Notes under the pieces: generated by a model
What the model was told of the DNA's origin: nothing
What the model saw: only the letters and a program-made list of their open reading frames with translations
Databases searched by the model: none
Translations under genes and position numbers: made by a program
Shown here: positions 4,622 through 57,796 of the stretch, piece after piece
Layout of the letters: each line of letters starts with the position of its first letter
Position numbering within the stretch: the stretch's first letter is position 1
Assembly: GCA_023554245.1 (NCBI GenBank)
Contig: JAMJQL010000040.1
Span: forward strand, 1 to 58,494
Source of the DNA: Gemmatimonadota bacterium
GTDB taxonomy: Bacteria; Gemmatimonadota; Gemmatimonadetes; Palauibacterales; Palauibacteraceae
Reading direction: 5' to 3'
Length of the DNA: 58,494 nucleotides

Positions 4622-4651
4622 GTATTCAGTGTTTCCCGTGTCGAGTCGGAA

Positions 4652-6052
4652 TCAGTCGCCCGTCAGGGCTGCTACGTGGGCTTCCGCCCGGTCCGCCAGC
4701 TCCACCGCCCGGTCCGTCTCCGGTGCCTCCGAGATGATTCGCAAGATCGGTTCCGTGCCGGAGGGCCTCACGTGTAACCACTCGCCGGCCTCCGGCCAGG
4801 TGATTCGGAGCCCGTCCGTATCGTCGAAGGTGGCGCCTTCGCTGGCTTCGTCTCGCAGTGCCTCGTAGGCGCGAGCGGCCCCGCCCGGGGGTTGGGCCGT
4901 CTTCCGCTTGACCATTGTATACCGTCTGCGACCTCGCAGGAGTTCCCCCGGTCCGGTACGGTGGGTCGCCAGGTGGCTCAGTACGAGGGCTGCCGCCAGT
5001 GGCGCATCGCGCGTGAGATTGAGGTCGGGAAGCATCACCCCACCGTTCCCCTCCCCCCCGATCACGGCATTCCGTTCGGACATCATGGCAGCCACCCTGG
5101 CTTCTCCCACGGCACTTCGGAAGAAGGGCACATCCGCCGCCCTCGCTACGTCCTCGATGGACTGGCTGGACGAGAGATTCGTCACAACCGGCCCGGGCCG
5201 GCGCTCCAGAACGTATTCGGTCGCGAAGGCGAGGGTCCAGTCCTCACCGATCGGCGCCCCGGTCTCGTCCACGAGTGCGAGGCGGTCTGAATCTGGATCC
5301 ACGGCCAGTCCAACGACGGCCCCTGCTGTCCGCACCCGGTCGCCGAGCTCGCCGAGGTTTTCCGGGGTCGGCTCCGGGTTGCGGGGAAATCGGCCGTCGG
5401 GATCGAGTCCGATACCCTCGACACGGCAGCCCAGACGGGTCAGCAGCTCCGGCACCACTACGGCACCGGCACCGTGCACGCAGTCGAGGGCCACGACGGG
5501 AGCCCAGGCGCGAATCGCGTCCGCATCGACGAGGTCGAGATCCAGGATCCTCTCGACGTGGTGAGCGGCTACGTTCTCCACCTCGCCTCCCGCTCCAAGG
5601 GAATCCCAGTCGGCGAGCGATGGACCGGCCTCGTAGAGCGACTGGATCGCCAGGCCATCGTCGGGGGTGACGAAACGACCGTCAGCGGCGGCGAGCTTGA
5701 GTCCGTTCCATTCCACGGGGTTGTGGGAAGCCGTGACGATCAGCCCTCCGAGGGCGAGCTGATCGTCTTTCACCGCGAGTAGATGTGTCGGCGTCGGTGC
5801 GATACCGGTCAACCGGACATCGAGACCTGCGGCCCGCACTCCAGCGGCCACCGCATCCGAGAGAAGCGAGCCGGATGTGCGCGAGTCCCGCCCTACGAAC
5901 ACGTAGTGCCCGCTGCCGCCCCCGGGGGCCCGATCCCGGATGAACGATCCGAATGCCGCGCCGTACCTGGCGGCGACCTCCGGCGTCATCGTACGTCCCA
6001 CGATGCCGCGAATCCCGGATGCGGAGACTATAAAAGGATAATCGGCCGTCAC
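4652..6052 (-). CDS. glmM: Phosphoglucosamine/phosphohexose mutase (GlmM-type)
   Basis: It interconverts glucosamine 6-phosphate and glucosamine 1-phosphate (alpha-D-phosphohexomutase family). Visible motifs are the N-terminal SGIRGIVG, the phosphoserine loop TASHNP, the metal loop DPDSDRLAL, the sugar-binding GGEGNGGV and the C-terminal phosphate loop RPSGTEP. About 466 residues. The GTG at 6052 is chosen because GGGAG stands 6 bases upstream and the protein then starts right at the family core; an ATG at 6085 would add 11 residues. The sequence resembles the PMM/PGM-like GlmM used by archaea and several bacterial phyla rather than E. coli GlmM, so some breadth of substrate is possible. Its place before glmS supports the amino-sugar role. 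Confidence 0.9.
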   Translation of the reverse strand: MTADYPFIVSASGIRGIVGRTMTPEVAARYGAAFGSFIRDRAPGGGSGHYVFVGRDSRTSGSLLSDAVAAGVRAAGLDVRLTGIAPTPTHLLAVKDDQLALGGLIVTASHNPVEWNGLKLAAADGRFVTPDDGLAIQSLYEAGPSLADWDSLGAGGEVENVAAHHVERILDLDLVDADAIRAWAPVVALDCVHGAGAVVVPELLTRLGCRVEGIGLDPDGRFPRNPEPTPENLGELGDRVRTAGAVVGLAVDPDSDRLALVDETGAPIGEDWTLAFATEYVLERRPGPVVTNLSSSQSIEDVARAADVPFFRSAVGEARVAAMMSERNAVIGGEGNGGVMLPDLNLTRDAPLAAALVLSHLATHRTGPGELLRGRRRYTMVKRKTAQPPGGAARAYEALRDEASEGATFDDTDGLRITWPEAGEWLHVRPSGTEPILRIISEAPETDRAVELADRAEAHVAALTGD

Positions 6053-6168
6053 TTCACTCTCCCACTGGGCTGCCGCCGGTAACATCGCACGCGACGTTTA
6101 CGCACAACTCGGCGGGAAACTTACCTGGAGAGCAGGTGGATGGGCATAGGTCTTTGGTCCAACGTCGG

Positions 6169-41747: not shown

Positions 41748-44336
41748 TCAGCCGCACTCGCTGTAGCCGCAGGCGTGACACTTCATGCACCCCTCGGCGA
41801 ACTCGAGGCTCGAGCCGCAGTCGGGACAGGTGCCGATGAACTGGATCGCGGCCTGCGCCTCGAACCTGTGGATCACCGGCTTTTCGGCGGTTTGAGTGCC
41901 ACCGTTCGTCTGCTTCGCAGCGCCCACCTCCGGGATCGGAAGGGACTGCTGGATGCCTTCCTTCTCCTCCAGGTAACGCTCGACGACCTGAGCGATCGCG
42001 TCGGGGCTGGAAAGCACCTTGTTCGCACCGAATCCGACGGCGCGATCCGAGGAGATGCCCCGGAGCTGCTTGTGAACGGAGCGCAGCGAGATGCCGCTTC
42101 TCAGCGCCAGGCTGATCAGCCGGCCGATCGCCTCGGCATCGGCCATCGCAGGACCGCCCGCCTTGCCGAGCGCTACGAACACCTCGAACGGACGTCCCTC
42201 CTCGTCCTCGTTGATCGTGACGTACATGTCGCCGAGCGGCGAATCGATCTTCCGGGTCACGCCCTTCAATATGGCCGGACGCTTGCGCATCTCGGGCTGC
42301 TTCATGAACCCGCCCTCGAGGGCCGCGATCGTCTCGCCCTGCTCCTCCAGTTCCGACTGGAGCTCGTCTACGCGAGCGAGGGCCCCGGCCAGCTCGGCGG
42401 CCAGCTCGGTGTTGTCGAGCTTCTCGAACGCGGCGACCGTCTCGGGATCGACGAGCCCGGTTCCGGGCGACGCATGCACGCCTCGCGCGGCGGCCTCGGC
42501 GGCCACTTTCCGCGCCGTCTTCCCCGTCGAAAGCACCTGGGCATCCCGCGAGCCGTCGCGATAAACCGTCACTCCCTTGCAGTCGAGCTCGTACGCGAGC
42601 TCGAAGATCCGGCGCACGTCATCGACCGTCGCTCCATTCGGGAAATTGCAGGTCTTCGAGATCGCCGAGTCCGTGTACTGCTGGAAGGCGGCCTGCATCC
42701 GGATGTGTTGTTCCGGTGTGACGTCATGCGCGGTGACGAATGCCGCCTGCACATCCTCGGGCACCTCGTCGAAGTGGATGTGGCCCTCGTCGGCGATCCG
42801 GCGCATCAGTTCCTCGGAATACCAGCCCCCCTCCTTCGCGACCTTCACGAACTCGGGATTCACGTCGGGCATCAGCACGCCGGCCTGGTTCCGCATGAAC
42901 GCGACGGCGAACAGGGGTTCTATGCCGCTGGAGCAGCCGGCGATGATCGAGATCGTGCCGGTCGGGGCGACGGTGGTGACGTTGCAGTTCCGGAGCCGGC
43001 GCATGGGCCGGATCCGGGCGCCCGTCTCGTCGCGGGCACAGCTGTCGTCCGGTCCCCAGATCGAGCGCTCCCACTCCGGGAATACGCCTCGCTCGCGGGC
43101 CAGCCGCTCGGATTCGACCTTCGCCTCTTCGTCCACGAAGCGCATCAGCTCGCGACCCAGCTCGATAGATCGTGCGGACCCGTACGGCTCGCCGAGCTTC
43201 ACCAGCATGTCCGCCCAGCCCATCACGCCGAGGCCGATTCGGCGGATGTTCTTCGACAGCTCGTCGATCTGCGGAAGCGGGTACTGGTTCGCGTCGATGA
43301 CGTTGTCGAGAAAGTGCGTGGCCCGGTGCACGGCCGTCCGGAGGTTGTCCCAGTCGATCCTTCCGTCCTGCACGAAGCGGCCGACGTTGACCGAGCCGAG
43401 ATTGCAGACGTCGTACGGGAGAAGCGGTTGCTCGCCGCACGGATTCGTCGCCTCGTACGAGCCCATGTGAGGAACCGGATTGTAGCGATTCGCTTCATCG
43501 ATGAAGTAGACGCCGGGCTCGCCGTTCCGCCACGCACCGTACACGACCTTTTCGAACACCTCTCGCGCGTCGAGCTCGCCGACCGGCTCACCGCCCCGCG
43601 GGTTGCGCAGCGCGTAGCTCTCGCCCCGCTCGACCGCGTTCATGAAGTCGTCGGTGACCGCTACCGAAATGTTGAAGTTCGTGATCTTGTGCCCTTCCTC
43701 CTTGCAGTCGATGAACTCCAGAACGTCTGGATGGTCGACACGGAGGATCCCCATGTTCGCGCCGCGGCGCGTGCCGCCCTGCTTCACGGCCTCCGTGGAG
43801 GCATCGTAGACTTCCATGAAAGACACGGGACCACTGGCCACGCCCATCGTCGATTTGACGACGTCACCCGACGGACGCAGCCGGCTGAAACCGAATCCGG
43901 TTCCGCCGCCCGACTGGTGAATCAATGCCATGTCGCGGAGAGTCTCGTAAATCCCCTCGAGGCTGTCGGGCACTGGAAGCACGAAGCAGGCCGAGAGCTG
44001 GCCGAGCGGGCGGCCCGCGTTCATCAGGGTCGGGCTGTTCGGCTCGAACTCCCCGTCGGCCATGATCTCGTAAAAGGTCCGCGCGACCTGCTCCACCCGC
44101 TCCTCGCTGGCGCCGTAGCGAGCGTCCACGTCGGCGATCACACGCGCGACGCGCCAGAACATGTCCTGCGGAGTCTCGTTCGGCTCGAGGTCCTGGTCCT
44201 TCTTCAGGTAGCGCTTCGCCAGGACGGTGAGCGCGTTCTCCGAGAGCCGGGGCTCCGGCAGATCGGCGGGCGTGTTCTCGATCGTCTCAGCGGTAGTGTC
44301 GGTCTTCGGGGCGACTGTCGTGTCGGGTCCGTGCAT
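41748..44336 (-). CDS. nrdJ: Adenosylcobalamin-dependent (class II) ribonucleoside-diphosphate reductase
   Basis: NrdJ makes deoxyribonucleotides using a B12-generated thiyl radical, with or without oxygen. The 862-residue protein has [20 protein letters not shown] (active-site cysteine), [44 protein letters not shown] (catalytic NxCxE and partner cysteine), and [10 protein letters not shown]. The C-terminus ends in a cysteine cluster CPDCGSS and [13 protein letters not shown], used for re-reduction. There is no ATP-cone; the extra insert after residue 600 is the family's C-terminal extension. GAGGA precedes the ATG. Tandem NrdR boxes and a TACAAT -10 lie upstream. Confidence 0.96.
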
Positions 44337-44693: not shown

Positions 44694-45224
44694 TCAGCCG
44701 GGCTGCTGCCAGCGGCCTCCGGCATGCAGTTCCTTCAGGGCCCGGTAATGTCCCACGGTGAGCCGAACCCGGCCGCGCAACTCTTCATCCACCGGTCTCA
44801 CGACTCGCCCGGGGACACCCACGACGAGGCTTCCCGGAGGGATCTGCGCCCCCTCGGTAACCAGGGCTCCGGCGGCGACCACGGAGCCCACTCCGACCAC
44901 TGCGTGGGACAGGACGATGGCCCCCATGCCGATAAGACAACCGTCCTCGATGTCGCAGCCGTGAATGATCGCGCGGTGCCCGATCCCGACGCTGTTCCCG
45001 ATCCGGCAGGGTCGATCGACATCGACGTGGACCATCGTCAGGTCCTGGATGTTGGTTGACTCTCCGATCGTTATCGGAGCGATGTCGCCGCGCAGGACGC
45101 ACTGGTACCAGATGCTGGCGTGCGAGCCGATCGTCACGTCCCCGATCACGTCGGCCGAGGGCGCGACCCACACGCCCTCTCCGAGAGTCGGGTGCACCGC
45201 CGTCCGCAGCTCGTCGGCGTTCAT
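44694..45224 (-). CDS. Gamma-class carbonic anhydrase-like (left-handed beta-helix) protein
   Basis: 176 residues made of hexapeptide repeats (VIGDVTIGSHASIW, APITIGESTNIQD, SLVVGVPGRVV). The three metal histidines occur as TMVHVDVD, GIGHRAIIHGC (H..H...H pattern of gamma-carbonic anhydrases and the YrdA/CaiE proteins). Hydration of CO2 or an unknown acyl or cofactor-related role is possible. ATG overlaps the amidase stop by 4 bases, so it is the last gene of the peptidoglycan-recycling operon, an odd partner. Confidence 0.85.
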   Translation of the reverse strand: MNADELRTAVHPTLGEGVWVAPSADVIGDVTIGSHASIWYQCVLRGDIAPITIGESTNIQDLTMVHVDVDRPCRIGNSVGIGHRAIIHGCDIEDGCLIGMGAIVLSHAVVGVGSVVAAGALVTEGAQIPPGSLVVGVPGRVVRPVDEELRGRVRLTVGHYRALKELHAGGRWQQPG

Positions 45225-47137
45225 TCGCCGCCTGCACCGGTCGCGGTTCGCGCCAGGAAAGCCTCTATCCCGTCGGCCACGCCTCGCGCGTAGAGCTCCT
45301 GGAATCCCGGATCTCGCAGCGCCGCCTCGTGTTTCGGCATCATCATGAATGCGCCCTCGGTCAGCACGGCCGGCATCCAGGACATCCGGCACACGGCGAG
45401 ATCCCCCCAGAACACGCCGAGATCCCGCAGGCGCATCGTCGCCAGCATCCCGTCCTGAATCGCTGACGCCAGACCCGCGGCGTGGGGATGGAAGTAGTAG
45501 GTGCTCGTCCCCTCCCGACCGAACGGCCGCACCCCGTCCGGCAGCGCGTTGTTGTGGATCGAGACGAAGAGTTCGGCACCCGCCTCCTCGGCAGCGTTCG
45601 TGCGCTCGTACAGCCCCATCTGCTCTCTGTCGTTTCGGATCAGGATCGGCATGGCGCCTCTCTCGGTCAGGATCCGTTCGAGGATCCGGCCGATCGCCAG
45701 GTTTGCGTCTCCCTCGTAGTAGCCGGTGGGTCCGGTCGCCCCGGCCCCCGGGTGCCCCGGGTCGATCGCGATCCGGCGTCCTGCGAGCGGACGGGCAGGA
45801 TCGATCTCGGGAGCGTTCCGGAGCTCGAGTCGAAGCGTGGCACGACCGCCGGTTCTCTCGTCGTATCGCGCGCGCCAGCCCCAGACCGGCCCCTCGAACC
45901 GCACCCGCATCCGCATCCGCGAACCGGGCAGCTGCGACCATTCCACCGATTCGATCACACGTGGAGAGGGCCCGAGCGAGATGCGATTGGTGACTGCAGT
46001 TGCGCCGAAGAGCACGATCTCGAGGGTGCGAAGGTCAGGCTGCGTCACCTCGAGCGGAAGCGCGGCGGCAAGCCTGATGTCCAGCATTACGCGGTCCCCG
46101 CGCGGCTCGAAGCGGAGATCGCCGACGGCGGAACGCGGTATCGGCGTGCTGGCGGGGAGCAGTTCCACGTCCTCCAGGGTCACCCAGGCATGAAGGTCCG
46201 GGGCGAGGCGAAGGCGAATCCGATCGCCGACCCGCAGGTCCACGATCGCGCGCGTCCCGTCGGGAAAGCGCCACCTGTAGGGTCCGAACGCCGCCGGACG
46301 CGCCACGACCATCCCGTCATTTCCGTTGATCTCGTCGGGCTCGTCGGTCAGCCTCGCCACCGGAGGGGCAATCGGGTCGAGAATCCGGAGCGGAAGGATG
46401 AGGGGCTCGTTCTGTCGCTGCTCGCCCATCCGGGCCCGCACCTCGAGTCGAAGCGAGTCTGCCGTGTCCGACCAGTTGCAGTCTTCCGGCACGCAGGCGG
46501 TCCGATACAGCTCTTCCGCCGACATCGTGAGCACGCGGACGTCACCGGAGGCAGGTGCCAGCGGGATCGTGGTTCGGCCGGCGACGATCTCGACCTCTGC
46601 CCCCGGGTTCGCCCGGATCTCGACGCTCATGGGCTCGTCCGGCCAGGCCCAGCGTTCGGCGCGGACCCCCAGCCGATCCGCGTCGAGCAGCGCTCCCGCC
46701 TCCCAGGGCGAGCCGGTCTGCGCCGGCAGAAGAATCGGGTGTGCGATCGAATCGGTCTCTGCACCGCGACGCGCAACCAGACGGTACGATGCCGTGTCGC
46801 CGCTGGCTGCCGCTGGCACCGGGAGCCAGGCGAGAAACGCGCCGTTCGGTTCCACCTCGACGAACTCGCCGTCGATGATCAGGGTCGCGTCCCCGGTACC
46901 GACGGTGCCGAACACGAAATTCGAATCCCGGGCCGAGATCCGCTGCAGGGAGTCAGGGTACTCGACGTACAGCGAAAGCGGCCCGGTTACGGAGGGAACC
47001 GGCGGCAGCGAACTGCGGATCACACCGGGCGGCAGCGGGCCCGGGTCCCCCGACGAGGCACATGCGGCGAAACCCAATGGCAGCAGTGCGAGCGCACAGA
47101 GCCGTCGGAGGGCATCGAGGCGGCAAGTTCCGATCAT
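45221..47137 (-). CDS. N-acetylmuramoyl-L-alanine amidase (AmiC-type), lipoprotein
   Basis: 638 residues. N-terminal hydrophobic segment LCALALLPLGFAAC gives a lipobox, so it is probably anchored to a membrane. A long beta-rich AMIN-like part follows, and the last 200 residues are an Amidase_3 domain: IAIDPGHPGAG (first His), YYEGDANLAIGRIL (Glu), SIHNNALPDG (second His) and VLTEGAFMM (catalytic Glu). It cleaves the amide between muramic acid and the stem peptide, releasing sugars and peptides for recycling. It follows the symporter by 4 bases and precedes the carbonic anhydrase-like gene. Start at ATG 47137; two longer starts are unlikely. Confidence 0.9.
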   Translation of the reverse strand: MIGTCRLDALRRLCALALLPLGFAACASSGDPGPLPPGVIRSSLPPVPSVTGPLSLYVEYPDSLQRISARDSNFVFGTVGTGDATLIIDGEFVEVEPNGAFLAWLPVPAAASGDTASYRLVARRGAETDSIAHPILLPAQTGSPWEAGALLDADRLGVRAERWAWPDEPMSVEIRANPGAEVEIVAGRTTIPLAPASGDVRVLTMSAEELYRTACVPEDCNWSDTADSLRLEVRARMGEQRQNEPLILPLRILDPIAPPVARLTDEPDEINGNDGMVVARPAAFGPYRWRFPDGTRAIVDLRVGDRIRLRLAPDLHAWVTLEDVELLPASTPIPRSAVGDLRFEPRGDRVMLDIRLAAALPLEVTQPDLRTLEIVLFGATAVTNRISLGPSPRVIESVEWSQLPGSRMRMRVRFEGPVWGWRARYDERTGGRATLRLELRNAPEIDPARPLAGRRIAIDPGHPGAGATGPTGYYEGDANLAIGRILERILTERGAMPILIRNDREQMGLYERTNAAEEAGAELFVSIHNNALPDGVRPFGREGTSTYYFHPHAAGLASAIQDGMLATMRLRDLGVFWGDLAVCRMSWMPAVLTEGAFMMMPKHEAALRDPGFQELYARGVADGIEAFLARTATGAGGE

Positions 47138-47141
47138 CCGA

Positions 47142-48881
47142 TCACAGTCCGTTTGCGAGTTCTCTGTCGGGGCGAAGTCGTCGCAGACCAATCAGGCCGA
47201 CGACCGCGACCACTGCGGAGAGGGCGGCCGTCACCGGTTCGAGCAACAGAGCAGCGCCGAGCGCGAACATCGCCCCGAACAGCAGGAAGGCGGCGAACAG
47301 CGTCCTCGCCAGGTCCCGGCGCAGCGGAGCATCCGGCTCGAGACCGGTCCGGGCGCGAGAGAGCTTCCAGCCCGGCCCCCCGGGTCGGACACGGCGATAG
47401 AACCCATCCAGGGTCTCGTCCGACTCGGGCGGGGTGAGCCACATCACCGGCAGCCAGACGGCGGCCGCTCCGAAGGCGGTTACCGTCAGCCGCAGGCCGA
47501 AGCCCATGCCGCCCCAGAGCGGAAGATAGGTGAGCAGCGCGATCGCGAAACCGGCCAGCATCGAGGCCAGCTCGGCCCACGCGTTTACCCGCCACCAGAA
47601 CCAGCGGAGAATCAGGACCGCGCCCGGTCCGGTTCCGATCGCGATCATGAATCGGAACACGGTACCGATGTCGTCTGCCACGAAGGCGGCCACTCCGCCG
47701 GCGACGACGATGAACACCGAGGCGAGCCGTCCGAGAGCGACGAGCTGGCGCTGATTCGCATCGGGTCTCACGAAACGGGCGTAGAGATCGTTGACGATGT
47801 AGCTGGCACCCCAGTTGATCTGCGTCGAGACGGTGGACATGAACGCCGCCACGAAGGAGGCCATCACGATGCCCAGCACCCCGGCCGGAAGGTAGCGGAT
47901 CATCAGGAGCGGGTAGCCCATCTCGGGGTCCTCGAGGTCCGGAAAGATCACCAGGGCGGCCAGCGCCGTCAGGATCCAGGGCCAGGCCCGCACCACGTAA
48001 TGGAGCAGGTTGAACAGCCAGGCTGCGCCTTCCGCGTCCCGCTCCGTGCGACATGCCGACATGCGCTGCACGAACTCGCCGCCCCCGTCGGAGCGACGCC
48101 AGGCCCACCATTGAATCCCGAGGTAAGCCAGGAAGGTGCCCATCGGCAGATCCGGCGAGCCCGGGCGAGGCACGAGACGGAGCGCGTCCTCGCGCCCGGC
48201 CGCGATCACGCCTTCCTTCAGTGCTGCCAGCCCCCCGATGTCGCCGATCGCGAATCCGGCCACGAGGAGGGCCCCCAGCATGGCGAGACCGAACTGGAAG
48301 AAATCGGTCGCCACGACCCCCCACAGGCCGGAGATGCCGGCGTAGATCATCACGAACACGGAGAGTGCGACCACGATCCAGAGTCGCTCGTCGCCCGGCA
48401 GCCAGGCGGGGAGCGTGCCGAGCAGATCGAACGCCTCCATCACCTTGCGCATGGCCAGCATCACGTAGCCGATCGCAATGCAGTTGATCGGAACCGCGAA
48501 CAGGAAGGCCCGGCTGCCCCGCAACACCGCCGCCGGGCGTCCGCCGTAGCGGAGTTCCGTCAGCTCTGCGTCGGTGACCACCTCCGCCCGGCGCCACAGC
48601 CGCGCGAACAGATAGATGAGCAGGAGATGCGAGAGGGCGAAGGCCCACCACTCCCAGTTCCCGGCGATGCCGCGACGGGCCACCAGACCGGTCACGTAGA
48701 GGGGCGTGTCGACGCTGAAGGTAGTGGCGGCCATCGAGGTGCCGGCGAGCCACCAGGGGAGCGAGCGGCCGCTGACGAAGAAGTCGACCAGGCCGCCGCT
48801 CGCCCGGCGCGCGAGCCAGATCCCGAGCGCGAGGGTGCCGCCCATGTACAGCCCGACGATCCACCAGTCGAGCGCGATCAC
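47142..48881 (-). CDS. Sodium:solute symporter (SSS family)
   Basis: 579 residues with about 13 hydrophobic segments. The SSS signature is seen as DWWIVGLYMGGTLALGIWLARRA, VDFFVSGRSLPWWLAGTSMAATTF and the mid-protein GISGLWGVVATDFFQFG. SSS transporters use sodium to import sugars, amino acids and nucleosides. GTG 48881 overlaps the nagZ stop (GTGA), and it lies between nagZ and the amidase; thus a muropeptide or anhydro-sugar substrate is inferred. AmpG or a MurP PTS component is absent from this window. Confidence 0.87.
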   Translation of the reverse strand: MIALDWWIVGLYMGGTLALGIWLARRASGGLVDFFVSGRSLPWWLAGTSMAATTFSVDTPLYVTGLVARRGIAGNWEWWAFALSHLLLIYLFARLWRRAEVVTDAELTELRYGGRPAAVLRGSRAFLFAVPINCIAIGYVMLAMRKVMEAFDLLGTLPAWLPGDERLWIVVALSVFVMIYAGISGLWGVVATDFFQFGLAMLGALLVAGFAIGDIGGLAALKEGVIAAGREDALRLVPRPGSPDLPMGTFLAYLGIQWWAWRRSDGGGEFVQRMSACRTERDAEGAAWLFNLLHYVVRAWPWILTALAALVIFPDLEDPEMGYPLLMIRYLPAGVLGIVMASFVAAFMSTVSTQINWGASYIVNDLYARFVRPDANQRQLVALGRLASVFIVVAGGVAAFVADDIGTVFRFMIAIGTGPGAVLILRWFWWRVNAWAELASMLAGFAIALLTYLPLWGGMGFGLRLTVTAFGAAAVWLPVMWLTPPESDETLDGFYRRVRPGGPGWKLSRARTGLEPDAPLRRDLARTLFAAFLLFGAMFALGAALLLEPVTAALSAVVAVVGLIGLRRLRPDRELANGL

Positions 48882-50428
48882 GCGAGCGAGGCTCCCGGTC
48901 GGTCGCCTTCAGCCTCGCGAAACTCGGCATCGAGCCGGGCAGCGGCGGCCCGCTCCATCGCTTCCTCGGTGGCCCAGGCGATCATCCCGCGTGCCTCCGA
49001 ACCGAGCTCTGCGAGCAGGCGGGGGTGTCCGAACACGATCGGCCAGGCATTCGGGTGGAGATCGAGCGCCTCCTCGACGGCACGACGCCCCACGTCAGTG
49101 AGGGATGCCGTTCCCTTCCAGGCCTGTGGAGTCGAGGCGATGAGGAGCACCGTCTGTGCGGACTCGGGGTCGGAGATCCGCGCATCGGCGTCGACCACGG
49201 TCCAACCGTGCCGCCGGAGCTCCTCGGCGAACAGGGATCCGAGCGGGGCGCGAGCCGGTTCTGGCCGATCGTCCCAGATCGACACGATCCGCAGTGGAAT
49301 CGCGGGACGGATTCGCCAGGGGCGCTCGCCCACCAGGCGGATCGAGTCGAAGGCGAGCGAGGCTGCTTCAGCCGTATGGCTCACCCGGACAGGCCCGATG
49401 CCGTCATGGCTCTCTGCCGTCGCGGGCTCCGACTCGGCCCGGGCGGCGGGCCGGACTCGTCGGGCTGTCTCCTCCAGCCGGCGAAGCGATGCCTCCAGCC
49501 GATCGCCCGTGCTCATGTCGGCGAGCGCCGCGCGGTCCAGCAGCCTCGCGGAACGCTCGAGGTCGGCCGGATACAGCAGGAGGTCGCAGCCGGCGTTGAG
49601 GGCAGCGACGGCGCCTGCGGCGGCGCCGTCCGGGTCACCGGGAAGATCGACCGCATCGGTGAACCCGCTCATGTTGAGCGCGTCGGTTACCACGATCCCC
49701 TCGAACCTCATCTCCTCACGCAGCAGCTCCTCGAGCAGCCGCGGTTCCAGAGTCGCCGGGCGCGGTGAACCGAGCGCCGGATAGGCCACGTGGGCGGTCA
49801 TGAACGCCGCCGCCAGGTCGGCCACGGCCCGAAATGGATCCAGGTCTTCCGCGAGTTCGGCTCGACCAGCCGGCACGACTGGAAGCTCGTCGTGCGAGTC
49901 CGCGGTCGTCCTGCCGTGCCCCGGGAAGTGCTTCGCGCAGGCACCTACGCCCTCTGCCTGACAGGCCTCGATCCAGGCTCGTCCGAGTCGGCCCACCTCT
50001 TCCGGCCGGGCACCGAAGCTGCGCGTGCCGACGATCGGATTCCTCGGTTCGACATCCAGATCCAGCACCGGGGCGAGGACGAGATTCACGCCTGCCTCGC
50101 GGGCTCCGCTGCCGGTGATCCGGCCCGCCTCACGAGCAGCCTCGAGCGGGTCGGGGCACGCGGCGAGGCCCATCGGCGGCGGCAGCTCGGGCAGGCCCCC
50201 GAACTGCTGGCCGGCCCCCCGTTCCAGGTCCGAGGCGATCCAGAGCCGGTGACGCACGGCCGAACGCCACTCGGACGCCCAGCGGGCGATTCGCTCCGCC
50301 TCTCCGCCGAAGATCACGAAGCCGCCCGCGCCGAGTGCCAGGGCTCGATCCGCCTTCCGGCGTACCTCGTCCTCCGGCTCGAGGTCGAATCGAAGGGCTT
50401 CGAGGAAGAGACGAGCCGCGAGAATCAC
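48878..50428 (-). CDS. nagZ: Glycoside hydrolase family 3 beta-N-acetylglucosaminidase (NagZ-type)
   Basis: 516 residues. The TIM-barrel part has GAGGFVIFGG, IASDLERGAGQQF, LAPVLDLD, GTRSFG, the NagZ-specific KHFPGHGRTTADSHDELP (His-Asp dyad loop) and the nucleophile in VVTDALNMSGF. A C-terminal 170-residue Rossmann-like part follows. No signal peptide, so it is cytoplasmic, like NagZ, which removes GlcNAc from GlcNAc-anhydroMurNAc. GTG 50428 overlaps the anmK stop. Lengths beyond the core barrel (about 340) are seen in Gram-positive NagZ relatives. Confidence 0.92.
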   Translation of the reverse strand: MILAARLFLEALRFDLEPEDEVRRKADRALALGAGGFVIFGGEAERIARWASEWRSAVRHRLWIASDLERGAGQQFGGLPELPPPMGLAACPDPLEAAREAGRITGSGAREAGVNLVLAPVLDLDVEPRNPIVGTRSFGARPEEVGRLGRAWIEACQAEGVGACAKHFPGHGRTTADSHDELPVVPAGRAELAEDLDPFRAVADLAAAFMTAHVAYPALGSPRPATLEPRLLEELLREEMRFEGIVVTDALNMSGFTDAVDLPGDPDGAAAGAVAALNAGCDLLLYPADLERSARLLDRAALADMSTGDRLEASLRRLEETARRVRPAARAESEPATAESHDGIGPVRVSHTAEAASLAFDSIRLVGERPWRIRPAIPLRIVSIWDDRPEPARAPLGSLFAEELRRHGWTVVDADARISDPESAQTVLLIASTPQAWKGTASLTDVGRRAVEEALDLHPNAWPIVFGHPRLLAELGSEARGMIAWATEEAMERAAAARLDAEFREAEGDRPGASLA

Positions 50429-51558
50429 GCCGGGGTCATCTTTCCCAGCAGCCGCGACCCCCTGGCGCCCGTGGCCCAGCCGAGGTCCGAGGGGAAGCCG
50501 AGACGATGCTGTCGCGCCAGCAGAGCGAACGCCGCTGCCTCTCGCGCGTCGCCGTCCCAGCCGGCGAACTCCAGCGGATGCACCGGGCAGTCCAGCCGGG
50601 TCCGGATCCGGCGAACCAACTCGGGATTCCTCGCGCCTCCACCGCAGAGCAGCACCTCGTCCGGCTCGAATCCGAGGAACCCGTGGGCATCGGAGATCGT
50701 CCGAGCGGTCAACTCGGTAAGTGTGGCCAGCAGGTCCTCGGTGCGCTCGCCGGAGAAGCGGTCGAGCCACGGCGTAAGCGCGGCCGAACCGAACCGCTCC
50801 CGTCCCGTGCTCCTGGGCGGTCTCTTCGCGAAGAAGGGATCTGTGAGCCACGCGTCGAGCGCGGCGGGTACCACTTCGCCGGAGGCGGCCAGACTGCCGT
50901 CCAGGTCGAATCGCTGCGCTCCCGATGTCAGCAGACGTGTGGCCTCGTCGATCAGGGCCACGCCAGGCCCCGTGTCGAAGGCCGTCGGGGCGGCGCCCGA
51001 CGCTTCCGCCGGGAGACCCGTGACGTTGGCCATGCCGCCGATGTTCTGGATCGCCCGGCCGCGGTCCGGATCGGAGAGAACGAGGAGATCGAACAGAGGC
51101 GTGAGCGGCGCACCGTGCCCGCCGGCCGCCACGTCCCGCACCCGGAAATCGTGGATTACGTCGATCCCCGTCCGTTCGGCGATCACCGCCGACTCTCCGA
51201 GCTGCAGGGTCGCTCCCCCGTCGTGCCCGGACGGCGGACGGTGCCACACGGTCTGCCCGTGGCTGCCGATGGCGATGACGGACCCGGGATCGATTCCGGC
51301 GTCACCAAGCAGAGCCAGTGAAGCCGCGGCAAACCGCTCGCCGAGATCGAATCCGAGGTCGCAAAGCTCGGCGGAACCGGCACGGCCCGAAACGGCGGCC
51401 GAGAGCCGGGACGCGGTTTCCAGTTCGAAGGGATCCGTGCGAAAGGCCACGAGGTTGGCCTCGTCGGGCCGTTCGGCGCTTCCCCGGAGCTCGATCAGGG
51501 CCGCATCGATCCCATCGAGGGAGGTGCCCGACATCAGGCCGACGTACAGGTCGCTCAC
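50425..51558 (-). CDS. anmK: Anhydro-N-acetylmuramic acid kinase
   Basis: 377 residues of the AnmK family. It opens YVGLMSGTSLDGIDAALIEL, then IGSHGQTVWHRPP, DFRVRDVAAGGHGAPLTP, the ATP-binding NIGGMANVTGLP, DTGPGVALID and GGGARNPELV. It opens the 1,6-anhydro ring and phosphorylates O6, giving MurNAc-6-P for MurQ. GTG 51558 overlaps murQ stop (GTGA). An ATG at 51624 would add 22 residues overlapping murQ. Confidence 0.95.
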   Translation of the reverse strand: MSDLYVGLMSGTSLDGIDAALIELRGSAERPDEANLVAFRTDPFELETASRLSAAVSGRAGSAELCDLGFDLGERFAAASLALLGDAGIDPGSVIAIGSHGQTVWHRPPSGHDGGATLQLGESAVIAERTGIDVIHDFRVRDVAAGGHGAPLTPLFDLLVLSDPDRGRAIQNIGGMANVTGLPAEASGAAPTAFDTGPGVALIDEATRLLTSGAQRFDLDGSLAASGEVVPAALDAWLTDPFFAKRPPRSTGRERFGSAALTPWLDRFSGERTEDLLATLTELTARTISDAHGFLGFEPDEVLLCGGGARNPELVRRIRTRLDCPVHPLEFAGWDGDAREAAAFALLARQHRLGFPSDLGWATGARGSRLLGKMTPA

Positions 51559-52523
51559 GGCGCCTCTTCCGTCGTGTGTGCTGCCGGGAACCGCGCGAGA
51601 CACTCTGCCAGGAACCCGCCGCACGCCTCCAGTCGCTCTTCGGCCATCCCGCGGTCCACACCCATCGCTTGCATGGCGAGGGCCGTCTTGACCCTGCCGT
51701 CGGCGCGGAAGAGGAGATCACTGGCGCGCGGCCGGTCGAGCCCGGTGAGCGCCTCGATGATCCGCAGGCTGCGGTCCTCGAGCTTCCGGCTGGTCGCCCG
51801 GAGATCCACCATGAGATTCCCGTATACCTTGCCGAGCCGGACCATGGTCGCGGTCGTGATCGTGTTGAGCACCAGCTTGGTGGCGGTTCCTGCCTTGAGT
51901 CGGGTGGAGCCGACGATCGCCTCGGGTCCGGTCGGAATCGTGATCCTGTGATCCACCAGGGAGCTGAAATCCGACGGAGGTTCGGAGCAGGTCAGCAGGC
52001 CGGTGCCGGCACCGGCATCGAGGGCCTGCTCCACGGCTGCACGGACGAACGGGGTCGTTCCGGATGCGGCGATGCCCAGCACGAAATCTTCGGGCCCGAC
52101 ACCGGCGTCACGGATCGCCCATCGTCCCGCCTCCTCGTCGTCTTCCACCCCCTCCCGGGCCCTCACCAGCGCCTCCGGACCACCAGCGATGATCCCCTGC
52201 ACCATCTCCGGGTCGGTGCCGAAAGTGGGCGGGCACTCCGCCGCGTCCAGCACGCCGAGACGACCGCTTGTGCCCGCGCCGACGTAGAACAGTCGGCCGC
52301 CTCGCGAAAGCCGGCCCGCCACGTCGTCGACTACCGAGGCAATCGCGTCCGTCGATCGTTTCACGACATCGGGAACGGACCTGTCCTCGAAATTCAGCAG
52401 GTCGATGATCGCGGCCGTGTCGGCCCGATCGATCCGGGCCGTGCGCGGATTGTACTGCTCCGTCAGCCGGTCGTCCCCGAGGTCCATCGGCCCGATTCGA
52501 TCGAGGCGTTCGTTTCCCGTCAC
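51555..52523 (-). CDS. murQ: N-acetylmuramic acid 6-phosphate etherase
   Basis: 322 residues. It has TEQYNPRTARID, the SIS-domain phosphate site YVGAGTSGRLGVLDAAECPPTFG, AGGPEAL-RAREGVEDDEEAG, IAASGTTPFV and LKAGTATKLVLNTITTATMVRLG, matching MurQ throughout. It cleaves the lactyl ether to give GlcNAc-6-P and D-lactate. It starts 15 bases after the first-barrel pair and couples to anmK. GlcNAc-6-P can then enter GlmM/GlmS metabolism via NagA, which is not in the window. Confidence 0.96.
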   Translation of the reverse strand: MTGNERLDRIGPMDLGDDRLTEQYNPRTARIDRADTAAIIDLLNFEDRSVPDVVKRSTDAIASVVDDVAGRLSRGGRLFYVGAGTSGRLGVLDAAECPPTFGTDPEMVQGIIAGGPEALVRAREGVEDDEEAGRWAIRDAGVGPEDFVLGIAASGTTPFVRAAVEQALDAGAGTGLLTCSEPPSDFSSLVDHRITIPTGPEAIVGSTRLKAGTATKLVLNTITTATMVRLGKVYGNLMVDLRATSRKLEDRSLRIIEALTGLDRPRASDLLFRADGRVKTALAMQAMGVDRGMAEERLEACGGFLAECLARFPAAHTTEEAP

Positions 52524-52538
52524 GCAGTGCGACCGCGA

Positions 52539-53489
52539 TCAGAAGTAGTAGCGCAGGTCGAATTCCACGATCCCGAATTTGGCCCGATTGTCGTCGCCCT
52601 GGAGGGGCACGCTGGAACCGGAAAACTGCAGTCCGATCGTGAAGTCGTTCCGGGCCACGTAGCCGACGCGGAGATATCCGGTACTGATGCTTCCATCGAC
52701 GTCCTGCGACGCCTCGGGATACGAGTCGTACAGGTAACCGAGCGCCACGTTGAGCGGAATGTTCCGCCAGGAGGCGAGGTCGAAGTCGAGCTGTGCGCCG
52801 AGCTGCGTGAACACCTCGTCGTCTTCATCCCGCCGCACCGACTCGCCGACTCCCAGGTTCGCAACTGCGATGATCCCGAACAGGGGTGAGAAGGCGTGCG
52901 CGTAGCGGCCACCACCCGAGAAGCGGAGCGTGTTCGACTTGCGGACGATGTCCGCTTCGACTCCTTCGATCACATCCTCTACGAAGCCGGCGATGTCGAC
53001 CTGGGTGACGCTCTTGTTCGAAACCTCGAAGTCCAGCGACAGCATGTCGCGCTCGGACTCGAGCACGCGGGCCAGCCAGCCGATTTCAAACCCGGTGATC
53101 GTGTTGACGCCTCGCGCCAGCAGGGTGCCGAGTTCGGTTCCCAGACGTGCGTCGACGGCGTAGCCGACCCGGAATGCGAACCAGTCCACGATTCTCTGCT
53201 GGTACTCGAAGTCGATGGTGGCGTACAGCAACTCACCCTCGAGGCCGGGGATCGTGTCACCATCGATCACGATCGGCGGCTGCAGCAGGTCGGTCGCCTG
53301 CCCGAGACCCAGGTAGGATACCACGTGGGTGCGGATCCACGGGTCTCCTACCGTGCGCGTCGGGCTGAACCGGTGACCGTCGAGTTCCGGATAGGGACCG
53401 GGTGCGTCCTGCGCCCCGAGCGGCGGGGAGACGAAACACAGCAGCAGGGCGACAGCCGCGAGGTGCATGGAGCGGCGGCATACGTTCAT
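52539..53489 (-). CDS. Predicted outer-membrane beta-barrel protein
   Basis: 316 residues. Signal peptide LAAVALLLCFVSPPLGAQ, cleavage before DAPG. The rest alternates short aromatic-ended strands (for example FAFRVGYAVDARL, GGGRYAHAFSPLF, LNVALGYLYDSYP) and ends in FDLRYYF with a terminal Phe, the usual signal for BAM insertion. GGAGG stands 8 bases before the ATG. No family name is certain. It is the second gene of the peptidoglycan-recycling operon, 15 bases before murQ. Confidence 0.75.
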   Translation of the reverse strand: MNVCRRSMHLAAVALLLCFVSPPLGAQDAPGPYPELDGHRFSPTRTVGDPWIRTHVVSYLGLGQATDLLQPPIVIDGDTIPGLEGELLYATIDFEYQQRIVDWFAFRVGYAVDARLGTELGTLLARGVNTITGFEIGWLARVLESERDMLSLDFEVSNKSVTQVDIAGFVEDVIEGVEADIVRKSNTLRFSGGGRYAHAFSPLFGIIAVANLGVGESVRRDEDDEVFTQLGAQLDFDLASWRNIPLNVALGYLYDSYPEASQDVDGSISTGYLRVGYVARNDFTIGLQFSGSSVPLQGDDNRAKFGIVEFDLRYYF

Positions 53490-53490
53490 C

Positions 53491-54156
53491 TCACTCACCT
53501 CCCCCAAGCGGGATCCACAGGCCGGCCAGGAGCTCGAAGCCGGAAGAGCGGAAGCGGGCCGGGATCAGCGTCTCGGCGCCGACATCCACCTCGACCTCCG
53601 AGATGTCGAGCAGGCTCTGGCTGTAGCGGGCCTCGATCGTCAGCCGCGGCTTGCCGATCGGGAACTGCCCGCCGACACCGAATTTCACGGCCACGTCGAA
53701 GTCCCTGACCGAGTCCTTGACGTCCTCGTCCTCGCCGTCGCCCTCCACGGGCGCCAGGGTCGCATCGAGCAGGAAGCCGACGTCCAACCCGCTGTTGACG
53801 AACAGCTTGCCGCCGCCCGGCTCGATCTTCAGCAGCAACGGGATGGAGACGTACGACAGGCCGAGTGACAGGCTGTCCTGGCGCTCGTCCTGCCCCTCTG
53901 TGTCGAAGGCGATCTTCGTGCCTCGCTCGACCCAGCCCGGCTGCACGCTGATCCACACGGCCTCTGCTACAGCGAATTCGACGAGACCGCCGAACACCGG
54001 TCCGGTCCGGCTGCGGTATTCCGCATTGGAAGGCGCATCGCCGCTCAGACTCGAGCTGGTGATTCCGCCGTAGGCCCCGATTCGGACCTGGGCCCATGCG
54101 TCGGGCGCGAAGACCGCGAGCAGCAGGCCTGCAAGCGCCGGTACGATTCTGCGCAT
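53491..54156 (-). CDS. PorT/OmpW-like outer-membrane beta-barrel protein
   Basis: 221 residues. Signal peptide LAGLLLAVFAPDAWA, then QVRIGAYGGITSSSLSG. Beta-barrel strands occur throughout (for example SLSLGLSYVSIPLLLKI, LFVNSGLDVGFLLDA, TIEARYSQSLLDI) with a Gly/aromatic pattern; it resembles the outer-membrane beta-barrel of PorT-type proteins. GGAGTTCAGC precedes the ATG. It is the first gene of the operon and ends one base before the next barrel gene. Function is unknown; muropeptide exit or entry is a speculative role. Confidence 0.72.
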   Translation of the reverse strand: MRRIVPALAGLLLAVFAPDAWAQVRIGAYGGITSSSLSGDAPSNAEYRSRTGPVFGGLVEFAVAEAVWISVQPGWVERGTKIAFDTEGQDERQDSLSLGLSYVSIPLLLKIEPGGGKLFVNSGLDVGFLLDATLAPVEGDGEDEDVKDSVRDFDVAVKFGVGGQFPIGKPRLTIEARYSQSLLDISEVEVDVGAETLIPARFRSSGFELLAGLWIPLGGGE

Positions 54157-54372
54157 GCTGAACTCCGGGCGTGAGATGAGCCTGGCCCCGTCAGGAGAGG
54201 ACCCGCAGCGGGGCGACGATTCCAACTGAACGTCCGGCAACCGCGCCCGCAATGCTCGAAACTGCATCTGTCGGCTCGAGCTGGCTTTCGGCGGCCCGGG
54301 CACGCCGACATCTTGTGCTGATCGCCGGCAAGGTTGGCTCACCTCCCCGCGAGCGAACGGAAGGCGCAACAC

Positions 54373-55581
54373 GTGCGAGCATCTCGACCTGCCATCTGCC
54401 TGTTGCTGGCTTTTCTGATGGGCCCCGCCTCCGGGTACGCGCAGGAAGCCGAGCCCGACTCCCTGCCGGATGATCCACCCATTCGTGTCGGCCACGGCGA
54501 CAAGGGCTTCGAGTTCGAGACGGCAGACGGCCGGTTTCTCCTCCAACTACAGGCGCGGCTGCAGTTTCGGATCTCCCACCCGTTCGATTCCGACCCGGTA
54601 ACGTTCCAGGAATTCAATGAAAACGACGACCTGTCGTTCTCCGTTCGCCGGGCCCGACTGAAGGTCGGCGGCCACGCCTTCGAGCCGTGGCTCAAGTACT
54701 ACTTCGAGTACGAGCTGGCCAGCGCGGCGCTGCTCAACTTCGAAGCGAAGCTCGAGAAGTGGAAGGCCCTGAGCCTGCACGTGGGGCAATGGAAGGTCGA
54801 ATACAACCGCGAGAGGATGATCTCCTCCGGGAAGCAGCAGACCGCCGATCGGTCGATCCTCACCTACCCTTTCACGATCGACCGGCAGCAGGGAGTGTCG
54901 CTGTACGGACGGCTTCGGGGTAGCGGCGCGGCCGATTTCAGCTACTGGGCCGGCGTGTTCAGTGGAAACGGCCGGGGCGAGAAAGGTGACGACGAGGTCC
55001 CGATGTGGACGGGGCGGCTGCAGTGGAATCCGTTCGGCGAGCCCGTTCCGATGTCCGGATCTGATCTGCAGCGGCACGAGGATCCGGTGGCGATCGTGGC
55101 CCTGGCGGGAGCCACCAACCGAAGCCCCTACACCCGCTTCTCGCAGTCGGGCGGAGGCCAGCTGCCGGGATTCGACGAGGGCATCGAGGGGCAGTACCGG
55201 GTGAACCAGGCGGTGCTGGAGACCGCGTTCATGTGGAACGGGCTCTCCTGGCAACAGGAGCTGCACTGGAAGGAGATCGACGACCGCGTGAACGGCGGCA
55301 CCACGGAGCTGCTCGGAAACCTCCTGCAGCTCGGCTACTTCTTCGGAGAGATCTGGTCGTTCGTCCCGCCGCCGCTGGAGCTGGCGGCGCGTTACGCGCT
55401 CTACGACCCGGACCGGGACGCGGACGAGGACAACCGGCAGGAGTTCACGTTCGCGGCGAACTGGTTCTTCAAAGGGCACCTCAACAAGCTGACGGCGGAG
55501 CTTTCCTACCTGGACTACGAGCTGGATGGCGTCGTCAGGGACGGGACCCGGTTCCGGCTGCAGTGGGACGTGTCGTTCTAG
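54373..55581 (+). CDS. Phosphate-selective porin O/P family protein
   Basis: 402 residues. Signal peptide ICLLLAFLMGPASGYAQ, then the OprO/OprP style N-terminus KGFEFETADGRFLLQLQARLQFR, VRRARLKVGGHAFEPWLKYYFEYEL, GQWKVEYNRERM and a long series of barrel strands ending RLQWDVSF (terminal Phe). Family porins admit anions such as phosphate or pyrophosphate. The start GTG 54373 is chosen because GGAAGG stands 8 bases upstream; a TTG at 54334 would add 13 residues. Divergent from the peptidoglycan-recycling operon, 216 bases apart. Confidence 0.83.
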   Translation: MRASRPAICLLLAFLMGPASGYAQEAEPDSLPDDPPIRVGHGDKGFEFETADGRFLLQLQARLQFRISHPFDSDPVTFQEFNENDDLSFSVRRARLKVGGHAFEPWLKYYFEYELASAALLNFEAKLEKWKALSLHVGQWKVEYNRERMISSGKQQTADRSILTYPFTIDRQQGVSLYGRLRGSGAADFSYWAGVFSGNGRGEKGDDEVPMWTGRLQWNPFGEPVPMSGSDLQRHEDPVAIVALAGATNRSPYTRFSQSGGGQLPGFDEGIEGQYRVNQAVLETAFMWNGLSWQQELHWKEIDDRVNGGTTELLGNLLQLGYFFGEIWSFVPPPLELAARYALYDPDRDADEDNRQEFTFAANWFFKGHLNKLTAELSYLDYELDGVVRDGTRFRLQWDVSF

Positions 55582-55689: not shown

Positions 55690-57627
55690 CTACGGCGTGT
55701 ACCAGATCGGGGAGGTGTACGCCCGCTCCTGCGTGACCATCGGGATCTCGTCCGGGAAGTCGAGATCGTACCTCGCCGCCTCGTACGCCGTCCACCGGGG
55801 CGTGGGAATCTCGATCACCCGGGCGTAGTAGAACGCGCTTTGCGTACGGTCGAAATCCGGGTCCTCCCACACCGTGATCAGCTCGGGCGACCCGATCGAG
55901 TTCGTCCAGGTGGCGTTCGCCACGTCCACCGTGTTGCCGACCGGGGGCAGCTTGCCGTCCGAGCCGGGGCGCCGGTCCCCCGACCAGGCGACGTCGTACA
56001 CCATTTCGTGCAGCTCGCCGCTCGCATCCCGCCACCCCTTCACGATCTGGATCCTGTCCAGATTGCCGGACATCGGGTCCTTCATCGCGGCAACCAGGAA
56101 CTTCGGCGAGGCACCGGAGGGCGAAGACCGCAGCGTTCCGCCCATCGGCACGCCCTTCGTGTAGCCCACGCTCGCAGGCAGTCGGCTCAGCGCGTCCGCC
56201 TCCTCGAATTCCCAGCCTCCGAAGAACCGCACGATCATCCGGGGTCCGGTCGTGGCGTAGGTCTCTTTCCGCATCATCGCGTCGAACAGCGCCTTGCGCG
56301 TGTTCTCGGTCGCCCACACGCCAGCATAGCCGGACGACACCATCGACCAGCTCGTGTACTCGGCGTCACCCATCTTGGCCATCGGGTGTTCCCAGCGTTC
56401 TGCGCTCGGTTCGGTACCGGAATGCTTGCCGAAGAAGTTGTCTTCGCCCGCCGTGGCGAGAGCCGTGTGGCTGTCTGTCGAGCCGATCATTCCGAACTTG
56501 TACGGGTTGGTGCCGAGCTCGGCCTCGGCCCGCAGTCCGAGCTTGAGCCCGCTGCGGGCATACTCGTACTGCAGCATGTCGTCCTGCTTGACCTCGGTGA
56601 GATCGAGGTTGCCCTGGTCCCAGGTCTCGTAGTCGGCGAACTCGTCTTCGGGCGACAGATACGGGTGCGCCTCCCCGTCTCCCTTGATCTGGGTCACCTC
56701 GTACAGCGGCTCCCAGCGAGCCCGGGTTTCGGCGTATTCCCTGTCGATCTGCCGCCCGGTAAATGACTCGATCCACGGGAACATGATCCCGTTCGACAGG
56801 TTACCGTTGTGCGCGATCGCGAGCACGCTTCCGCCCGTCTTGTCCTCATAGGCCTGCAGCTGCGTCCACAGGTCCCGGGGGTTATCGGAGCCGAGCGGCG
56901 CCAGGGTCGTGTAAGGAATCACCTGACTGGCCCGGTCGGCATCGTCGCGGAAGATCACCACCCGGTGCAGGTTGGCTCCCCGCGTGTTGGAGGTCCACTC
57001 GTATCCGATGAACGCCGTGAATTTGCCGGGCTCGTCGTATTCCTCGGCCGCGTCCAGGGCTACGTCCCAGGCGTCCCTGAATTCCGGGCTGCCGGGAGGC
57101 GACTTGAGCGCCTCGGGAAACGTGCCATCCGAGAACGCCCCGATGATCTCCACCGCGGCCTCGACACCCTGCTGCCCGCCCGCCTGCACCATGTCGTACC
57201 AGCGCTTCCCCGTCGGGTCCGCCAGCATGTCCGGATCGCCCTCGAACAGTCGCGGGAAGAACCCCATATTGTCCGAGTGGTCGGCCACCACGAGGAAGTC
57301 CAGCGGCCGGTCCAGCTTCACCTGGAGCCCGGTCGACGAGACCACCTCCTCGCCGCGTGCGAACCGGTAAGCGTCCTTCGGCAGCAGGCGCGCGCCGAAC
57401 GATCCGGCATCGAACGACATGCCCGTGTGCAGGTGCGTGTCTCCCCAGTACACCTGGGTCGGGAAATTCCGACCTGCGTAGGGGGAGAAGTGGTCCTGAG
57501 CCGGGAATGCCCCGGAAGCCTCTGCACTCGGTGGCGGCAGGCCGGGCGAGTCCTGGGCGAGCGCAGTGTCGGCGGACAGGGCCAGACCGGCCAGCGCCAG
57601 GCCGGTCAAAGTCATGATTCGATGCAC
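55690..57627 (-). CDS. DUF3604 family secreted metal-dependent protein
   Basis: 645 residues with a signal peptide (LTGLALAGLALSADTALA, cleavage before QDSP). It carries the DUF3604 motifs VYWGDTHLHTGMSFDAG, VVADHSDNMGF, YEWTSNTRGANLHRVV, HNGNLSNGIMFPW and GSTDSHTALATAGEDNFFGKHSG. The His/Asp-rich pattern resembles PHP-type phosphoesterases. Function is unknown. GTG 57627 follows GGAG at 8 bases; an ATG at 57615 is the alternative start for the signal peptide. A small open reading frame with a good ribosome site lies 74 bases upstream. Confidence 0.8.
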   Translation of the reverse strand: MHRIMTLTGLALAGLALSADTALAQDSPGLPPPSAEASGAFPAQDHFSPYAGRNFPTQVYWGDTHLHTGMSFDAGSFGARLLPKDAYRFARGEEVVSSTGLQVKLDRPLDFLVVADHSDNMGFFPRLFEGDPDMLADPTGKRWYDMVQAGGQQGVEAAVEIIGAFSDGTFPEALKSPPGSPEFRDAWDVALDAAEEYDEPGKFTAFIGYEWTSNTRGANLHRVVIFRDDADRASQVIPYTTLAPLGSDNPRDLWTQLQAYEDKTGGSVLAIAHNGNLSNGIMFPWIESFTGRQIDREYAETRARWEPLYEVTQIKGDGEAHPYLSPEDEFADYETWDQGNLDLTEVKQDDMLQYEYARSGLKLGLRAEAELGTNPYKFGMIGSTDSHTALATAGEDNFFGKHSGTEPSAERWEHPMAKMGDAEYTSWSMVSSGYAGVWATENTRKALFDAMMRKETYATTGPRMIVRFFGGWEFEEADALSRLPASVGYTKGVPMGGTLRSSPSGASPKFLVAAMKDPMSGNLDRIQIVKGWRDASGELHEMVYDVAWSGDRRPGSDGKLPPVGNTVDVANATWTNSIGSPELITVWEDPDFDRTQSAFYYARVIEIPTPRWTAYEAARYDLDFPDEIPMVTQERAYTSPIWYTP

Positions 57628-57700
57628 GGTGATCACTCCTGCAGTGTCGATTGACGTGAAGGCGGGGGCCGACTCAGGATGTAGCGGCAACCTGATGAGG

Positions 57701-57736
57701 TCAACTGCCGGGCGTTCCAGACTGAATCCTGTCCAT
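57701..57736 (-). other. Possible 11-codon leader ORF upstream of DUF3604
   Basis: ATG at 57736 is preceded by AAGGAG at 6 bases, and the frame MDRIQSGTPGS ends at 57701. An extended -10-like GTATACC lies further upstream. No repeated amino acid or attenuator is seen, so it may be chance. Confidence 0.2.
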
Positions 57737-57796
57737 CGCGTTCTCCTTCGGACAGGAGTCACGGTTGGTATACTTCGTGACCGTCATGAGTGCCGG

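Follow-up and report, generated by a model that had tools for sequence, protein, structure and literature searches.

Lytic transglycosylases are known to release GlcNAc-anhydroMurNAc-peptides from the cell wall. In Bacillus subtilis a MurQ-MurR-MurP-AmiE-NagZ cluster includes a secreted NagZ and a secreted amidase, and MurNAc enters through the PTS importer MurP. In Agrobacterium AmpG is replaced by YejBEF-YepA, which imports muropeptides (PMC9790009). Tannerella forsythia possesses MurT, a MurNAc importer of the sodium:solute symporter (SSS) superfamily that lies on one transcript with murK, murQ and AmpG (PMC5790795, PMC5388701). Cell extracts of this organism make peptide-free disaccharides, which are imported by AmpG (PMC7670621). 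In the largely open-access literature that we searched, we found no paper linking an SSS transporter to AnmK and NagZ. The description of the order to which our host belongs (PMC10469786) mentions neither peptidoglycan nor a symporter.

In this study we analysed a window of 58,494 nt, meaning the whole stretch of Gemmatimonadota DNA, which carries a block of eight genes on the minus strand (54156-44694). In our view these genes probably form an operon for the recycling of peptidoglycan sugars, with a sodium:solute symporter in place of AmpG as inner-membrane importer. An eight-gene, one-strand arrangement with tight junctions had been proposed in the preliminary description, and the coordinates and family matches bear out both the gene order and the identities, omp2 being called a barrel from its signal peptide and C-terminal Phe only. 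The block begins with omp1 (53491-54156), a small outer-membrane barrel (OMP_b-brl_2, PF13568, 76 bits), followed after 1 base by omp2 (52539-53489), a putative outer-membrane barrel with no family match and an uninformative single-sequence fold model (pLDDT 31). The gene for N-acetylmuramic acid 6-phosphate etherase, murQ (51555-52523; TIGR00274, 340 bits, cut-off 302), has a GTG start and an alternative ATG at 52487; its distance to omp2 is 15 bases, the largest gap in the block, or 51 if the ATG is used. Next comes anmK for anhydro-N-acetylmuramic acid kinase (50425-51558; PF03702, 313 bits; NF007148, 392.7 bits, cut-off 387), whose GTG start lies inside a 4-base overlap with murQ. The following nagZ-type gene (48878-50428) codes for a GH3 beta-N-acetylhexosaminidase with an extra C-terminal region (PF00933, 193 bits; best PDB relative 3sql). 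This protein scores 160 bits against PRK05337, below the cut-off of 207, and keeps the NagZ motif KHFPGHG...DSH as well as the nucleophile motif VVTDALNM. Four-base overlaps also join anmK to nagZ, nagZ to the SSS gene (47142-48881; PF00474, 104 bits) and the amidase gene to the last gene, while 4 bases separate SSS and amidase. The amidase (45221-47137) is a lipoprotein N-acetylmuramoyl-L-alanine amidase of 638 residues with the lipobox GFAAC and a C-terminal Amidase_3 domain at residues 456-625 (PF01520, 116 bits); its zinc ligands and catalytic glutamate, in the motifs DPGH, YYE, SIH and LTE, align with CwlV (1jwq). A gamma-carbonic-anhydrase-like hexapeptide-repeat protein (44694-45224; PF00132; NF050158, 157 bits, below the cut-off of 250) closes the block.

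On the 3' side, 357 bases past the operon, the syntenic block has its edge at a minus-strand ORF of a conserved cluster that we call c9 (41748-44336); read by eye, the translation suggests a ribonucleotide reductase. The 5' edge is formed by a divergent OprO/P-type porin on the plus strand (54334-55581; PF07396, 62 bits), and further upstream lies a 690-residue DUF3604 protein on the minus strand (55690-57762). A promoter and terminator scan was uninformative, with no promoter-like and two terminator-like sites, the latter fewer than in shuffled sequences. We infer that the eight genes are co-transcribed.

All three genes for the NagZ, AnmK and MurQ steps of classical recycling are present. 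The proposed pathway would start from GlcNAc-anhydroMurNAc-peptides set free by lytic transglycosylases. Their stem peptide would be cut off in the periplasm by the lipoprotein amidase, as its Amidase_3 active site and lipobox suggest, and the remaining peptide-free disaccharide would be taken up together with Na+ by the symporter. Going by family membership, a cytoplasmic NagZ would then split the disaccharide into GlcNAc and anhydroMurNAc, AnmK would yield MurNAc-6-P, and MurQ would produce GlcNAc-6-P and D-lactate. Neither the NagZ of the window nor its relatives with a readable N-terminus carry a signal peptide; hence the disaccharide substrate must enter the cytoplasm. The candidate importer is related to vSGLT and keeps the Na2-site positions (A52/F55/A346/S349/T350), which we take to match A62/I65/A361/S364/S365 of vSGLT. 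Since the SSS gene overlaps nagZ by 4 bases and the linkage of the two recurs in other genomes, the SSS protein is probably a Na+-coupled importer of peptide-free muro-sugar, with GlcNAc-anhydroMurNAc as its most likely substrate.

We surveyed 200 Gemmatimonadota genomes and found that the core gene order recurs in the host's family, its order and part of its class. Such recurrence across genera and families puts the order far beyond chance. Relatives of the window SSS at 57-75% identity form a close group, clade A, in 32 of the 200 genomes, and more distant SSS paralogues occur in nearly all of them. In about 26 of these 32 genomes nagZ lies directly before the clade-A gene, usually with murQ-anmK ahead and the amidase after it. 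The symporter is thus conserved beside nagZ, anmK and murQ in relatives, as the search proposed in the preliminary description had asked. The wider neighbourhood is kept as well: behind a divergent gamma-glutamyltransferase stand murQ, anmK and nagZ, then a transporter slot and the amidase, and finally c9, which turns up downstream of the locus in genomes across the class. In many genomes a large secreted protein stands between amidase and c9, and in several loci of the host's family and order the gamma-carbonic-anhydrase-like gene adjoins the amidase. Where the window has its divergent porin, relatives mostly have the gamma-glutamyltransferase. In the SSS tree the host family includes close relatives of Candidatus Palauibacter (L127 among the same-family rows).

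Some further features of these loci are worth recording. The divergent gamma-glutamyltransferase flanks murQ across the class, and many loci have a module of protein kinase, PP2C phosphatase and FHA-protease beside nagZ-anmK (both in L081-L117). In relatives from the host's family and order, MurQ is prolonged at the C-terminus by some 170 residues (L033:4657-6099, L031:5023-6471); this extension gives a weak match to the DinB superfamily (22.6 bits against a cut-off of 24.8), and its histidines follow the DinB pattern. The extension is missing from the window MurQ (51555-52523). Another family of the class has a different recurring cluster, in which a NagZ-like GH3 gene accompanies a more distant SSS and a second one, of about 27% identity (L053, L054, L057-L063).

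Is AmpG really replaced? In the host, a draft MAG of 2.93 Mb in 197 contigs and 92% complete, AmpG (TIGR00901) gave no match at E<=10, and none above the cut-off was found in all 17 sampled genomes of the host's order; absences here and below are those of draft genomes. Among the 200 Gemmatimonadota, AmpG scores above the cut-off in 14 and an AmpG-like protein occurs in 7 more, 21 in total, none of them shared with the 32 genomes that carry clade-A SSS. This non-overlap has a hypergeometric P of 0.08 for the strict set and 0.02 with AmpG-like proteins included, kinship being ignored, and taken alone it is weak evidence. Stronger support for replacement comes from genus g38, where the genomes of two species hold different transporters in the same slot with the same genes around: nagZ-SSS-amidase in G047 (L049) and nagZ-AmpG-amidase in G095 (L090). 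Genus g33 is also split between SSS and AmpG, and its AmpG lies elsewhere in the genome. The loci were picked from lists of SSS and AmpG hits, and slot counts are therefore not free of bias. At many murQ-anmK loci neither transporter is present, so a third route may exist.

Peptide removal gives a less specific picture. The AmpD family (PF01510, Amidase_2) was found neither in the host nor in any of 13 genomes of its family, and in 1 of 17 in the order; the Mpl peptide ligase (TIGR01081) was found in none of the 17. These absences fit an import of sugars without peptides. However, only 2 of 14 AmpG-bearing Gemmatimonadota have the AmpD family, so the class in general may strip off peptides outside the cytoplasm, which would then be no mark of the SSS variant. 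An amidase specific to the SSS variant can be ruled out: the gene also occurs at loci with AmpG and at loci that lack both transporters. For this reason the suggestion that the amidase makes peptide-free sugars outside the cytoplasm, from a presumed substrate, is plausible but not specific to the symporter. The preliminary description had also supposed that the classical AmpG/AmpD route is replaced, and had named AmpG and AmpD elsewhere in the genome, with a symporter not conserved beside murQ, as signs to the contrary. What we found is a host without detected AmpG or AmpD family, a conserved symporter and alternation in the same slot; the replacement is supported to this extent, and substrate and direction of the symporter are predicted. 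Probably this environmental, little-studied group of bacteria recovers its wall sugars through a door other than AmpG.

The closest SSS relatives outside the phylum are found in Cyanobacteria. One scan of genome contigs gave clade-A relatives at 46-61% identity there, and in a quick FastTree tree they form a supported group inside clade A. They did not lie beside murQ in the loci viewed, and linkage of SSS and murQ is therefore not universal in clade A. MurQ was present in 6 of 6 tested cyanobacterial genomes. The unlinked relatives, including those of Prochlorococcus and Synechococcus, have contexts of their own (L128-L149, L153). A uniform lack of AmpG in Cyanobacteria was ruled out, as 28 of 146 have it. 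For the wider SSS family the linkage does recur in other phyla: a Dadabacteria MAG shows murQ-anmK-nagZ-SSS in the same order as the window, the SSS gene adjoins murQ in five Acidobacteriota, and a Nitrospirota MAG has nagZ-SSS. The search had been extended to Bacteroidota at the suggestion of the preliminary description, and there the gene order was not seen: 40 murQ loci had no SSS, AnmK or NagZ nearby. Around the three SSS matches inspected in plasmid records (34% identity or less), no further gene of the operon was present within 6-8 kb.

Could the symporter carry something else? It might be possible that the imported substrate is a monosaccharide (MurNAc, anhydroMurNAc or GlcNAc) which the cell scavenges from other bacteria, so that the operon would serve nutritional salvage and not recycling of the own wall. 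MurT of T. forsythia is such an SSS-superfamily MurNAc importer beside murQ, small sugars could enter through the barrels and the 5' porin, and AnmK would handle anhydroMurNAc. Nevertheless we consider this unlikely: there is no MurNAc kinase (MurK) among the eight genes, and a NagZ predicted to be cytoplasmic, whose gene overlaps that of the symporter, points to import of the disaccharide. It is also conceivable that the solute of the symporter has nothing to do with muro-sugars, being for instance an organic acid, D-lactate from the MurQ reaction, or an amino acid or peptide from the amidase, and that the location of the SSS gene reflects operon packing. SSS proteins as a group carry many solutes, paralogues are found in nearly all genomes of the phylum, and the cyanobacterial clade members are unlinked to murQ. 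Against this stand the recurrence of the linkage in several phyla and the fact that SSS fills the slot held by AmpG in close relatives, and we regard such a solute as very improbable.

A different question is how much of the block belongs to the import system. According to one reading, compatible with muro-sugar import by the symporter, the eight genes, both barrels among them, would make up a single dedicated import system from the outer to the inner membrane. The barrels are on the same strand, with 1 base between them and 15 bases to murQ, and there is no terminator-like site between omp1, omp2 and murQ. Yet a tblastn search of relatives, members of the same family included, detected neither barrel beside murQ, and to our knowledge the small-barrel family of omp1 is not known as a sugar porin. 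We give this extension little credence. The barrels, earlier described as part of the import route, thus fall outside the conserved unit, and together with the divergent porin they are local to the host lineage. If the symporter replaces AmpG as we propose, the barrels would be a lineage-specific addition that is not essential to the system.

The fate of GlcNAc-6-P raises another point. The host gave no NagA (TIGR00221) at 1e-10, all of its 11 candidates having been scored. Nor did any of 194 class genomes at 1e-20, with scoring limited to the best candidates of each; MurQ is nearly universal in these genomes. Since NagA was not found, the last step to UDP-GlcNAc is left without an assigned enzyme, and the earlier description of the operon as complete was an overstatement. 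The window contains glmS beside an archaeal-type GlmM (2765-6085; TIGR03990, 448 bits, cut-off 439; bacterial TIGR01455, 197 bits), and our guess is that this GlmM might isomerise GlcNAc-6-P directly. A bolder version would see in the SSS clade a dedicated Na+-driven importer of GlcNAc-anhydroMurNAc and a third class of AmpG replacement, spread through the order in Gemmatimonadota and possibly present in Cyanobacteria, that feeds a NagA-free pathway, for example via the archaeal-type GlmM; in this full form it seems to us rather doubtful. Should the symporter indeed replace AmpG, a large group of mostly uncultured bacteria would recycle its wall with the sodium gradient as driving force and with peptide-free sugars, and muropeptide signalling via AmpG would not apply there. 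A specific transporter clade would then be named for a function known in only few bacteria. The lack of a recognisable NagA across the class, though MurQ is kept, suggests that a basic pathway contains a step yet to be described.

Compared with known systems, the window shares the NagZ, AnmK and MurQ steps with the E. coli pathway. However, E. coli has AmpG, AmpD, Mpl and NagA, none of which were found in the host, where a symporter and a periplasm-facing lipoprotein amidase stand instead. The B. subtilis cluster resembles the window in bringing together amidase, NagZ, MurQ and a sugar importer, and differs in that the window NagZ is predicted to be cytoplasmic, the amidase belongs to a different family, AnmK is present and no PTS importer MurP is among the eight genes. 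YejBEF-YepA, which is not encoded in the operon either, stands in for AmpG in whole orders without being related to it (PMC9790009), and the symporter proposed here would do likewise. The Agrobacterium system is an ABC transporter for muropeptides and keeps a cytoplasmic AmpD, whereas the host has an SSS protein and no AmpD was found. The MurT-MurK-MurQ operon of Tannerella, with AmpG and YbbC upstream, likewise combines an SSS-superfamily transporter with murQ in an organism that imports peptide-free muro-sugars, a likeness in superfamily and murQ operon context. In Tannerella AmpG coexists and carries the disaccharides, while it was not found in our host; MurT carries MurNAc for the kinase MurK in an operon without AnmK and NagZ, and the window has these two and no MurK. 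Both AmpG replacement and muro-sugar import by an SSS protein thus already have precedents, in YejBEF-YepA and in Tannerella MurT.
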